Part shown: positions 12,760 to 17,238 of the stretch, one piece after another
Position numbering within the stretch: position 1 is the stretch's first letter
Layout: each line of letters begins with the position of its first letter
Source: Pleurocapsa minor GSE-CHR-MK 17-07R
Lineage (GTDB): Bacteria > Chloroflexota > Anaerolineae > Aggregatilineales > Phototrophicaceae
NCBI GenBank assembly: GCA_019359125.1
Contig: JAHHHY010000009.1
Span: forward strand, 1 to 64,000
Reading direction: 5' to 3'
DNA: 64,000 nt
The notes under the pieces: generated by a model
What the model was told of the DNA's origin: nothing
Database searches by the model: none
Seen by the model: only the letters and a program-made list of their open reading frames with translations
Translations under genes and position numbers: made by a program

Positions 12760-13374
12760 TTACTTTGCTTCCGCGCGCACCTGTTTCAGCACCTGTTGCA
12801 GCGTCTCGACCGGCACCGCGCCGGGGACCAGATACCGCTGATTGAAAACCAGCGCCGGCACGCCCTGCAAGCCAAATTCACGCGCCTGGCGCACATCCCG
12901 GCTGACCTCGGCGTCGTACAGCGCGCGCGAGGCAGGCTCGGTGATCGCTTTCTCGAACGCCTCGCCATCCAGCCCGACCGACTGTGCGATTTCGCGCAGC
13001 ACGCTCACCTGGCTGATGTCTTTGGCCTCCACCCAGTAGGCGCGGGTGGCTGCCTCGTGGAAGTCGAAGTTTCCCTGCGACTCGGCGTATTTGTCGGCAA
13101 TCAGGGTGATGCGGCTGTTGATGCCAAACGGTCCAGAATTGATGACCACGCCGTGATCTTCGAGCATCATCTGGTTGAAGCGCGGGCGCGATTCGTTCTC
13201 AATTTTGGCGAGGTATTCCGGCGAAATCGGCGGCGAGCCCGCCGGGCGCAGCTCGTACGCGTGCCAGACGACCTCGACATCTTTCTCTGTTTCCTGGAGG
13301 GCCTTCAAACTGAAAGCCACGGTGTAACACCACGGTCAGACGAAATCTGACCAGACGTCGATGCGAATCGTCAT
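12760..13374 (-). CDS. DsbA/FrnE-like thiol oxidoreductase, probable selenoprotein (UxxC)
   Basis: From ATG 13374 the frame reads MTIRIDVWSDFV, then an in-frame TGA (13338-13336), then PWCYTVAFSLKAL and on to residue 204. FrnE/DsbA-like 2-hydroxychromene-isomerase relatives carry (V/F)CPWC at exactly this place, so the TGA replaces the first redox cysteine, giving U-P-W-C. AAAGGGA precedes the ATG at good spacing, and the frame is open on both sides of the TGA. An 8-bp hairpin with a GUU loop starts 17 nt after the TGA, as expected for a bacterial SECIS. The rest (GVPALVFNQRYLVPGAVPVE with the cis-Pro) is a normal thioredoxin-fold end. The alternative is a TGC-to-TGA nonsense mutation or a sequencing error, with a shorter GTG-started product lacking the active site. 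Confidence 0.75.
13300..13318 (-). promoter_or_regulatory. SECIS-like hairpin for selenocysteine insertion
   Basis: On the coding strand GGCTTTCA pairs with TTGAAGGCC (eight pairs, one of them U-G) around the loop GUU. The loop guanine is the 26th base after the TGA, within the 16-37 nt window known for bacterial SECIS elements, whose short apical loop carries a conserved G/GU. It lies inside the coding region, as bacterial SECIS elements do. Confidence 0.6.
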
Positions 13375-13431
13375 CTGCAAAATCCCTTTCTATCCTGGGG
13401 GTATCCGGAAGACTGTAACCCGCGGCGGGGC

Positions 13432-13848
13432 TTACCCATTCACCCGCCGAAAGCTGGCGGTGATGCCCAGGGCATCCAGCGCAGCGCGCACCCGCGCCAC
13501 GTCGGCTGCATCGTCGGCATCCGCCGTCAGCACATGGACGAGCCGATCATCGCGGTCTTTACCCCGCGACCGGCTGGCAGTGGTCACTTTCGACTTGTAG
13601 CCCAGCGCGCCCGTGCGTGTGGCTTCTTTCACAGCCGCCCACAGCGCGTCCGCCTGCACCGCGTCCGTCTCGATGACGAACACGCCCGCGCGCGACGTCG
13701 GCGGGGCGACCGGCACTTCCGGCTTGTACTCAATCCAGTACACGCCTTCCATCTGCGAGGGCAAGGCCTCGGCATCATGCGCCATGCGTGCCCGCTGGAC
13801 CATCTGAATCAGCGACAGGTCGATCTTGTCACCTTTGGGCTCGGTCAT
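13432..13848 (-). CDS. DUF1917-like protein (BLES03 / phosphothreonine-lyase-like fold)
   Basis: A 138-residue soluble protein. The segment VYWIEYKPEVPV...AGVFVIETDAVQADALWAAV, then GALGYKSKVTTA, DRLVHVLTADADD and DVARVRAALDALGI follows the order of the DUF1917 family, which is related to the eukaryotic BLES03 protein and the OspF phosphothreonine lyase fold. The match is from memory of the family pattern and is moderate. Its ATG overlaps the stop of the upstream histidine kinase gene by 4 bp (ATGA), so the two are translationally coupled. A role beside the kinase is likely but unknown. Confidence 0.4.
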   Translation of the reverse strand: MTEPKGDKIDLSLIQMVQRARMAHDAEALPSQMEGVYWIEYKPEVPVAPPTSRAGVFVIETDAVQADALWAAVKEATRTGALGYKSKVTTASRSRGKDRDDRLVHVLTADADDAADVARVRAALDALGITASFRRVNG

Positions 13849-15926
13849 TGCGACACGCTCGTTTCCTGCGTGCGCGGCTCGTTGGAGTCCACTTTTGCAT
13901 GCAGCGGCATGGTGAAGCCAAAGGTGCTGCCCTGGCCGTAAGTGCTGGAAAAGCGCATCGCGCCATCGTGCTGCTCGATGATGCGCTTGACCAGATACAG
14001 GCCCAGGCCGGTGCCGTCGATGCGCGCCGTTTCCTCGCTTTTCACGCGGTAGAACGGCTCGAACAGGCGCGTCTGCGCTTCGGCGCGGATGCCGATGCCC
14101 GTGTCTGAGACCTCGAACAGCACCTTGCCCGCTTCGTCCGCGCTGCGCAGGCGCACGGTCACAAAGCCGCCACTTGCGGTGTATTTGATCGCATTGCTGA
14201 TCAGGTTATCGATCGCTTCTGGCAGGCTGGTGATATCGGCCATGACCAGGAAGGTGGTGTGCGGCTCGATATCGGTAATCAGCGAAACTTCTTTCTGGCG
14301 CGCTGAATCACGGTGATCCATCAGGCTGCGCAGGGCGAGGTCATTCAGCGAGACCGGCGCGCGCGGCTGATTACGCAGGGCATTCACGCGCTCCAGCGAC
14401 AGGATTTCCGTGCTCATGCGCTGGATGCGCTCGGCGGCGCGGCGCATGGCGTCGAAATACTCGCGCTGTTCTTCGTTCAGCACCGGGTCAAGGTCAAAGG
14501 TCAGGATGTCCAGATAGCCCACGATGATGCCCAGCGGGCTGCGCAGGTCGTGGCTGGCGATGCGGATCATGTCGGTCTTGAGCTGTTCCAGCTCGCTCAT
14601 GTGGCTGTACAGCCCGCGCAGCTCGCCCAGCTGTTCCTGCGACAGCTGATACAGGCGCGCATTCTCGATCGCCTCGCCCGTGCGCGCCGACAGCATCACC
14701 ATGTATTCCAGCACGCTCTCGTTGAACACGCCGTCGCGGTTGATTTCCAGATTCATCACGCCCAGCACTTTATTGTGCGTGATCAGCGGCACCGCGATTT
14801 CGGCGCGCGTGTCTGCGTTGTCAGCGATATAGTCCGGGTCTTTCGAGACATCCAGCACCAGCAGCGGCTGGCGCAGGCGGATGGCTCGCCCGACAATGCC
14901 GTGCTCCACTGGCAAATCTGCTTCATACTGCGCGCTTTCGCCCGCCACACGCACCAGCTTCAGGCGGTCATTTTCCAGCAGGCCGATGAAGCCGGTCGTC
15001 GCGTTGCTCAGCAGCATGGCCGACTTGAGCGCGACGACCAGCACCTTGTCCAGCTCCAGCGTCTGATTCAGCTCGTTGTCCATCTGCTGCAGCACCGACA
15101 GCAGCACCATGCGCTGGGCCAGCGCTTCCTCCACTTCCTTGCGCTTGCTGACATCGCGCACGATGCCGCGAAAGCCCACCGGCTCGCCATGCCGACCGCG
15201 CATCAGCGAGATCGACAGCTCCACATAAATTTCAGTCCCGCCGCGCTGAATCGCCTTGCCCTCCAGCGCCGCAATGGGCGTGCCGGTGCGGAACACGGCG
15301 TTAAAATGCCGTTCGGCCGATTCCTTGTTCACCTCGTCGGTGAACACGCGAAACGACCGATGATCGCCGCGCAGCAGGGTGTCGCGGTCCACATTCAGGA
15401 TGCGGCACAGGCCGTCGTTCACCAGCGTGAATTCACCCGCCAGGCTGACCTCGTAGTAGCCATCCTCGATATTGTCGATCATCGCCCGGTAGCGGTTTTC
15501 GCTGGCCGTCAGGGCTTCTTCGCTGTTTTTACGCTCGGTGATGTCAAACGTGACGCCCAGCACGCCTTCAATTTCGTTGGCGGTGGAATACAGGGGGTTG
15601 GCACGGGTCTCAAACCAGCGGTCGCCGATCTGCATGACCAGCTCGATCGACTCGCCGCGCATCACGCGGTTGAAGCCGTCGATGATTTTGGGCATGTCCA
15701 GGGCCGCGGCAATTTCCGGCACCGATTTGCCGATCATCGACATCGGCTGTGTTACGGCGCGGTCCAGCTCACGGCCTTCAATCAGCGTCAGCACGCCCTG
15801 CTTGTCCAGCGCAAAAAGGATCACCGGCACATGCCGCATGATCGCTTCAAGACGGCGCTGGGCATCGCGCGCGCTGGAGCTACGCCGAGCCAGACTTCCG
15901 GTCTGCCGATTGTTGTCGCTCGTCAT
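13845..15926 (-). CDS. Soluble PAS-PAS-GAF sensor histidine kinase
   Basis: A 693-residue kinase. Domain order: PAS with PAC (about 25-140, ending GVTFDITERKNSEE), a second PAS (about 145-265, ending RDVSKRKEVEE), GAF (about 290-430, NATTGFIGLLENDRLKLVRV to EYMVMLSARTGEAIENARL), HisKA with the phospho-accepting His in MIRIASHDLRSPLGIIVGYL, and HATPase_c with NLISNAIKYTASG, VSDTGIGIRAEA and GTGLGLYLVKRI. No membrane segment, so it senses a cytosolic signal. ATG 15926 is preferred over an ATG at 16052, which would run into the start of the divergent portal gene. No response regulator is adjacent. The 3' end overlaps the DUF1917-like gene by 4 bp. Confidence 0.85.
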   Translation of the reverse strand: MTSDNNRQTGSLARRSSSARDAQRRLEAIMRHVPVILFALDKQGVLTLIEGRELDRAVTQPMSMIGKSVPEIAAALDMPKIIDGFNRVMRGESIELVMQIGDRWFETRANPLYSTANEIEGVLGVTFDITERKNSEEALTASENRYRAMIDNIEDGYYEVSLAGEFTLVNDGLCRILNVDRDTLLRGDHRSFRVFTDEVNKESAERHFNAVFRTGTPIAALEGKAIQRGGTEIYVELSISLMRGRHGEPVGFRGIVRDVSKRKEVEEALAQRMVLLSVLQQMDNELNQTLELDKVLVVALKSAMLLSNATTGFIGLLENDRLKLVRVAGESAQYEADLPVEHGIVGRAIRLRQPLLVLDVSKDPDYIADNADTRAEIAVPLITHNKVLGVMNLEINRDGVFNESVLEYMVMLSARTGEAIENARLYQLSQEQLGELRGLYSHMSELEQLKTDMIRIASHDLRSPLGIIVGYLDILTFDLDPVLNEEQREYFDAMRRAAERIQRMSTEILSLERVNALRNQPRAPVSLNDLALRSLMDHRDSARQKEVSLITDIEPHTTFLVMADITSLPEAIDNLISNAIKYTASGGFVTVRLRSADEAGKVLFEVSDTGIGIRAEAQTRLFEPFYRVKSEETARIDGTGLGLYLVKRIIEQHDGAMRFSSTYGQGSTFGFTMPLHAKVDSNEPRTQETSVSQ

Positions 15927-16050
15927 AGATTGTCCGAAAGACACCGCATGACGCACACGCGCGCGCGTCCGTCTGCGGTCATGATTATGCTGATTACCAT
16001 ACCACAGTTTCAGCCCATCCGCGCAAGGTTCCGCATTAAGGAGATTGCTC

Positions 16051-17238
16051 ATGTTTCAATGGTTTCGCAACTCAATTCGCTCCCGTCGCGCTCCCGTGCT
16101 GGCCCCGGCCCGCAGGTTAGAGACAGCCGCCCACAGCGGGCCGTTTGGCGCGGCCCCGCCGTTTGATGCGCGCATGAACCGCGTGTATCAGCAGTCGCCG
16201 TGGGTATACGTCGCCGTCAACCGCATCGCCGAGGCGGCCGCGCTGACGCCGCTGCATGTCTCACGCCTCACGCCGGACGGCCCGGTGCGCCTGCCCGACC
16301 ATCCGCTGCTCCGTTTGCTCGATCATCCGAATCCCTTATTCAGTCGTTTCGAACTGCTGGAATAGACCGTGGGGATGCTTGAATTGTTTGGAAATTCGTA
16401 CTGGTATCTGGTGGGGGATGCGTCCGGCCTGCCTGCTGAAATCTGGCCGCTGGCGCCAGACCGCGTGCGCGTGGTGCCGGACGCGCTGCATCACATCGCC
16501 GGGTATGTGTATGAGCTGGATGGCCAGCGCACCCCGCTTCAGCCGGAAGAAGTCGTGCATTTCAAACGCTGGCACCCGTCCGACGACCATTACGGGCTGT
16601 CGGCGCTGGAAGCGGCCCGGCTGGCGGTGCAGAGTGACCGCGCTATGGCCGAATGGAACGCGGCGGCCTTTGGCCAGGATCGCGGCGTGCCAGCCGGCAT
16701 CGTCTCGATTCGCGATTTCATCAGCGATGCCGATTTCGAGCGCCTGAAACGCGACTGGGCCTCCAGCTACGGCGGCGGCCAGCGGCGCACGGCCTTCCTG
16801 CGCGGCGGCGGCGTGGAATGGCAGCACATCGGCCTCAGCCACCAGGACCTCGATTTTCTCAATGGGCGCTCTGCCCACCGCGACGAAATCCTGAATATTT
16901 TCGGCGTGCCCATCGGCATGCTGTCTGAAAATGCGACCGAGGCCAACGCGAAAGTGGCCGAGCGCGTGTTTATCGAGCGCACGCTGTGGCCGAAGCTGGA
17001 GCGCATCGCCCAGAAAATTTCGCAGGAACTGCTGCCTTTCTGGGGCGGCGGGGCCGTCGCCCGCTTTGAGGATATTCGCCCGACCGATGTGCAGGCGCGC
17101 CTGGACGAAATCCACGCTGCCTATCCGGTGCTGAGCATCAATGAAATCCGTGCGCGTTTCTTCGCCATGCCGCCCGTCCCGTGGGGGGATCGCCCTGCCG
17201 GGCAAGACGAGCAGGATATCCAGGGCGCAACGCGCTAG
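16051..17238 (+). pseudogene. Phage portal protein (HK97 type), interrupted by an in-frame TAG
   Basis: From ATG 16051 (AAGGAG at 16038-16043) the frame encodes an HK97-type portal: VYQQSPWVYVAVNRIAEAAA near the start, then LFSRFELLE, a TAG at 16363-16365, then TVGMLELFGNSYWYLVGD, PEEVVHFKRWHPSDDHYGLS, LDFLNGRSAHRDEILNIFGV and ENATEANAKVAERVFIERTL, all in the same frame. Without the TAG the product would be 395 residues, about normal. Portals form the dodecameric ring through which DNA enters the capsid. No terminase, capsid or protease gene is nearby. The otherwise intact frame suggests a recent nonsense mutation, a sequencing error or readthrough. A downstream restart at GTG 16369 would lack the N-terminal part. 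Confidence 0.8.

Follow-up and report, generated by a model that had tools for sequence, protein, structure and literature searches.

Within the 64-kb stretch of DNA analysed here (the window), a minus-strand gene very probably encodes a cytosolic FrnE-type thiol-disulfide oxidoreductase with a UPWC active site, in which selenocysteine (Sec) would be inserted at the UGA of codon 13 (Table 1). We infer Sec insertion, as the initial annotation had done, from computed evidence: the conservation of the TGA, a covarying hairpin, the Sec machinery of the source genome, Cys-containing counterparts of the gene and the modelled fold. The minus-strand frame 12760–13374 translates as MTIRIDVWSDFV-TGA-PWCYTVAF... 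and runs to a TAA; the TGA in place of the first redox Cys, claimed earlier, is present at 13336–13338, and the frame is open and retains homology on both sides of it, a criterion for selenoproteins. In a mechanical scan of the 64-kb window, seven in-frame TGAs have UxxC or CxxU spacing, this one included. The ribosome-binding site previously proposed before the ATG corresponds to AAAGGG at a distance of 9 nt. An ordinary gene caller had been expected to start instead at GTG 13320 and so to lose the active site, and the mechanical list does hold this 186-aa ORF, which by DSSP on the structural model lacks strand 1 (residues 3–9) as well as the active site.

Table 1. Features of the predicted selenoprotein gene (positions in the window)
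Feature	Position	Strand	Details and basis
Predicted Sec-containing FrnE/DsbA-like gene	12760..13374	minus	204 aa if TGA is read as Sec, ending at TAA; PF01323 match, FrnE profile match, model
In-frame TGA	13336..13338	minus	Codon 13, residue 1 of UPWC; conserved in 63/92 distinct genes
Cys16 (TGT) of UPWC	13327..13329	minus	Invariant in alignment A1 (13 rows)
SECIS-like hairpin GGCUUUCA-GUU-UGAAGGCC	13300..13318	minus	8 bp, loop GUU 13308-13310; covariation in 63 Sec genes
RBS-like AAAGGG	13384..13389	minus	9 nt before ATG 13374; sequence
GTG (Val19)	13318..13320	minus	Start in mechanical ORF list; 186-aa ORF
Pro173 of invariant V172-P173 pair	12856..12858	minus	Invariant in A1

With the TGA read through, residues 5–196 of the 204 match the DSBA family PF01323 at 99.7 bits (cut-off 25.6, E = 2.3e-28), and a profile of 13 relatives finds FrnE in the PDB at 2.4e-36. 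The AlphaFold model has a mean pLDDT of 94.6, and Foldseek ranks D. radiodurans FrnE entries in its first five places (TM by query 0.85–0.87, 30–32% identity), with SCO1869 next. By profile and by fold, D. radiodurans FrnE (DR_0659; PDB 5cnw, 5co3, 5cp1) is the best match of solved structure, and the earlier description of the protein as FrnE/DsbA-like stands. The five NCBIfam matches all lie below the curated cut-offs (best 28.1 vs 92.75). Assignment of the gene to COG2761, the FrnE group, is presumptive and draws on the FrnE match. D. radiodurans FrnE has a CP(W/F)C site, whereas the protein in the window has a predicted Sec in place of the first Cys, positioned in the model directly before helix 14–29. 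Cys16, the presumed resolving residue, is the only Cys besides site 13 in the 204-aa translation, so that a second Cys pair is absent; Pro173 occupies what is presumably the cis-Pro place of thioredoxin folds.

D. radiodurans FrnE is longer than the protein in the window and carries a C-terminal CXXXXC motif that the latter lacks. Passages of the Deinococcus study (PMC8945050) call FrnE cytoplasmic, propose that the C-terminal CXXXXC regenerates the enzyme, and place this motif in many FrnE proteins while naming some that do without it. No signal peptide is seen by eye in the translation, and this, together with the missing second Cys pair and the cytoplasmic location given for FrnE in that part of the study, points to a cytosolic reductase or isomerase supplied by an outside electron donor. 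The predicted disulfide reductase/isomerase role is moderately likely, and the location, catalytic direction, substrate and electron donor are likewise predicted. In the mechanism that we propose, the ribosome would meet the UGA at codon 13, and the hairpin, with its loop 25 nt downstream, would recruit SelB carrying Sec-tRNA(Sec), leading to insertion of Sec. Positioned at the start of helix 1, the selenolate would then attack substrate disulfides and Cys16 would resolve the mixed selenenylsulfide, the enzyme most likely reducing or isomerising cytoplasmic disulfides.

The codon at the active site was read in 92 distinct genes including that of the window, and is TGA in 63, TGC in 24 and TGT in 5, with no other codon seen; the Cys/Sec pairs that the initial annotation had suggested seeking among FrnE-like homologues thus comprise 63 TGA and 29 TGC/TGT genes. 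The 92 are no census: for the named loci among them, the best 80 of 332 confirmed were taken, and the search used two peptide patterns, one with Cys at the site. From 123 loci, L135 was dropped as its match begins past the site, and 30 were dropped as duplicates (same 156 nt). Ten distant FrnE-like rows, all TGC, are part of the 92 and are left out of the close group, which then holds 63 TGA and 19 Cys genes. Loci L142–L154, read later and kept outside the 92, add six distinct TGA genes from further Chloroflexota genomes. By title, the named loci (best 80 of 332) are mostly Chloroflexota MAGs or Herpetosiphon; L082 is labelled Bacteroidetes and is identical in sequence to L047, and L141 is a Mizugakiibacter gene of the Cys form on a long branch. 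Among 61 close genomes including that of the window, 20 hold a relative at E <= 1e-10. The 13 close relatives (the genus plus three further family members) divide into eight TGA and five TGC, and the same genus alone into 6/10 and 4/10. Of 400 genomes drawn from the phylum, 14 gave a strong match, that of the window included, eight with one internal TGA and six without; at the site itself the other 13 have TGA (seven) or Cys (six), where one TGA row duplicates L090 and four of the Cys rows duplicate named Herpetosiphon loci. Plasmid-borne copies were considered and rejected, since all 29 matching plasmid records lie below 60% identity (34.0–34.3% for the five matches listed).

This distribution bears directly on the possibility that the TGA is a true stop, leaving either a pseudogene or a truncated protein begun at GTG 13320. 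The conventional 186-aa ORF is compatible with such a reading. Against it, 62 other distinct genes share the TGA at this codon and are conserved on both sides of it; residues D6, V7, W8, S9 and D10 upstream of the TGA are invariant in the 13 rows of A1, and a start at GTG 13320 would cost the strand at residues 3–9 together with the active site. A true stop is therefore highly unlikely. An annotation that reads the TGA as a stop would presumably lose the active site in the 62 other TGA genes as well.

The hairpin downstream of the TGA has its loop G 26 nt after that codon and, folded alone, an energy of -8.9 kcal/mol. The limits of bSECISearch were applied as quoted in passages of a review (PMC13188914): a loop of 3–9 nt, a stem of 4–16 bp, a G at loop position 1 or 2, a location 16–37 nt after the TGA, and an energy <= -7.5 kcal/mol. 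The earlier placement of the hairpin inside the bacterial SECIS window agrees with all of these as quoted (GUU, 8 bp, 25 nt, -8.9 kcal/mol). Energy alone was nevertheless rejected as proof: the 66-nt region has no folding advantage over shuffled versions of itself (z -0.10; 91/200 at least as good), our own version of the SECIS rule is passed by 195/2083 control TGA triplets of the window, and, with contiguous stems only, <= -7.5 kcal/mol is reached by 15/63 Sec genes vs 4/19 close Cys genes. As energy hardly separates the two forms, the evidence lies in the conservation of the TGA and in the covariation of the hairpin. In 58/63 Sec genes, the hairpin that ranks best has a 3-nt loop and lies at 25 nt.

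All 63 TGA genes carry A, G, T, Y, T at +25 to +29 after the TGA, as do five of the six further TGA genes; the sixth (L154) has at +25 a G that is able to pair as G-U. The eight pairs of the hairpin in the window are formed in 82.7% of cells, and both-sided (compensatory) changes occur at seven of the eight pairs, a count reached by 14/500 shuffles. Both-sided changes occur in 51 cells, where shuffling gives 13.1 on average, and the covariation score of 0.320 compares with 0.133 after shuffling; neither value is reached in 500 shuffles. Pair 23–37 fails in 41/63 Sec genes, and the A-U pair adjoining the loop is invariant and hence uninformative. As related sequences may exceed shuffles in the absence of structure (a warning of the tool), more weight falls on two controls: all six slid registers score lower (0.073–0.141), and the 19 close Cys genes give no hairpin signal, with a score of 0.139 (shuffled 0.149) and pairing of 44.1%, no better than shuffles. 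A lack of hairpin conservation, named in the initial annotation as grounds against a selenoprotein, is thus contradicted by covariation across the 63 Sec genes. The Cys genes L025, L080 and L053 keep parts of the SECIS loop, e.g. AGTTTG or AGTCTG. These remnants look like SECIS decay after replacement of Sec, and the AGTTTG of L025 and L080 suggests that the change there ran from Sec to Cys.

The source genome (4.85 Mb, 98% complete) contains all four components that the initial annotation had proposed to look for, namely a tRNA-Sec (selC; 66.4 bits, cut-off 47, anticodon tca), selA (537 bits), selB (382 bits) and selD (379 bits). The selD gene itself (L017, G000:C22:304596-305531) has an in-frame TGA near the N-terminus (ASCAG-TGA-AAK), and a hairpin may follow it; the position before AAK is, we assume, the usual Sec/Cys place of SelD, and this SelD is probably a selenoprotein too, a known situation. 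That the UGA is read as a residue other than Sec, by near-cognate readthrough or in a TGA-reassigned code, is extremely unlikely: low-level readthrough is compatible with the sequence, but all 29 of the 92 genes that lack the TGA have Cys aligned at the site, tRNA-Sec, SelA, SelB and SelD are present, and covariation of the hairpin goes together with the TGA.

Presence of the TGA form follows the Sec trait in the family of the window, where 25 of 98 genomes searched carry the close subfamily. Genomes with the TGA form have tRNA-Sec in 12/13 and selB in 13/13 cases, those with the Cys form in 0/12 and 0/12 (Fisher 2.7e-6 for tRNA-Sec vs TGA form, with genomes that are not independent); the one genome that misses tRNA-Sec (G121) is 68% complete. 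In all, 70/98 family genomes have tRNA-Sec, and 58 of those 70 hold no close copy of the gene. Beyond the family, the TGA form is accompanied by tRNA-Sec in 6/7 phylum genomes and in 40/47 named loci (from the best 80 of 332), and the misses in all three sets (1/13, 1/7, 7/47) came from searches with stricter filters. G285 (84% complete) and the genome of L090, which have the same gene and both lack tRNA-Sec, probably represent a single genome that entered both sets. Pooled, tRNA-Sec accompanies 58/67 TGA vs 7/21 Cys entries (Fisher 6.1e-6, one genome probably counted twice). The Cys form occurs without tRNA-Sec in the genomes of L080 and L141. In all six Herpetosiphon (f42) genomes (Cys-form loci L113, L114, L116 and L120) it occurs with both tRNA-Sec and selB, and in the genome of L108 with tRNA-Sec, so that the coupling of Sec form and Sec trait is not universal.

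In the trees, from which six of the ten distant rows were left out, the Sec/Cys changes needed with the site masked number at least nine (quick tree, 82 rows) or eight (careful tree, 81 rows, L141 out), counts that give no direction of change. A single clade for all 18 Cys rows of the 81-row tree (L141 out) is rejected (p-AU 1.5e-12). The gene in the window groups with the Cys genes L020 and L021 (set of three rows, 100/93), and TGC in these nearest relatives would suit a sequencing or assembly error in which the codon is really TGC. Against this, the conserved-loop hairpin is intact in the window and not in L020 or L021, and their genomes (G011 and G010) lack the tRNA-Sec and selB that the genome of the window has, making an error barely credible. 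TGC in sister strains had also been listed in the initial annotation as an argument against a selenoprotein. The observation holds, as five of the 13 close relatives have TGC, but the argument does not, because the genomes of those five lack tRNA-Sec and selB, which fits Sec/Cys replacement and not an error. More broadly, we favour, with moderate rather than strong confidence, a Chloroflexota-wide FrnE selenoenzyme that tracks the Sec trait, in which loss of the machinery would have led to repeated Sec-to-Cys replacement and SECIS decay, Herpetosiphon having swapped the residue and kept the machinery.

Selenoproteins of this kind have been known since 2005, when DsbA-like UxxC selenoproteins of COG2761 were described from the Sargasso Sea (PMC1088965), and the Chloroflexota group is an addition to them. 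In the portions of later sources that bear on the matter, DsbA-like selenoproteins are counted as 4 in 2006 (PMC1794560) and as 41 and 45 in 2016 (PMC5029168), going by the apparent meaning of the columns in both; DsbA 1 and 2 appear in the GOS survey (PMC2398784), DsbA-like selenoproteins in a 2022 review (PMC9312934), and DsbA-like form 1 (PF01323, UxxC) in a 2026 review table (PMC13188914), a review that also names the DsbA-like selenoprotein NIP15863.1. The earlier statement that UxxC recurs in thioredoxin-fold proteins accords with these descriptions (PMC1088965, PMC13188914). Likened by description, the published form 1 and the gene in the window share the Pfam family, UxxC and a SECIS predicted downstream, and Cys homologues are widespread for both in the accounts given there (PMC1088965, PMC13188914). 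No report of this Chloroflexota group was found in the passages and listings of open-access papers that were covered. At the level of titles and opening lines of abstracts, papers on FrnE and selenoproteins yielded no bacterial FrnE selenoprotein, and work on selenoproteins or selenocysteine in Chloroflexota or Anaerolineae yielded nothing on the gene; PMC12013277 has no mention of DsbA, Chloroflex or Anaerolin.

The Cys-form Chloroflexota orthologues (L020, L021, L025, L027, L030, L113/L114/L116/L120 and others) belong to the same subfamily at up to 67% identity and differ from the gene in the window by a TGC/TGT codon at the site and by the absence of a conserved hairpin. The main value of the group lies in this natural series of repeated Sec/Cys swaps, with 63 Sec and 19 close Cys genes as natural variants of one small soluble enzyme. 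If the evolutionary reading is true, they form a ready series of paired orthologues in which to ask what selenium buys, and, as tRNA-Sec was checked in most of the genomes, why Sec is kept becomes testable.

The neighbourhood was rejected as a clue to function and no operon is claimed: across 80 sets of flanking genes, from the window and 79 named loci, the Bles03-domain gene upstream in the window has matches in five loci and the amine oxidase downstream in three. The commonest neighbour group among the 15 groups listed covers 15 loci, with the gene itself and frames antisense to it excluded. Directly upstream in the window (13432–16052, minus strand) are two genes, one for a protein with a Bles03 domain (PF08939) and one for a PAS/GAF histidine kinase; each has a match on the upstream side of the gene in L062, L077 and L079 as well. 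Further along, a frame at 16045–17238 (plus strand), by eye resembling a phage portal protein, is broken by an in-frame TAG at 16363–16365, with both halves open in the same frame; either decay of a prophage gene or a recoded amber codon may account for this.
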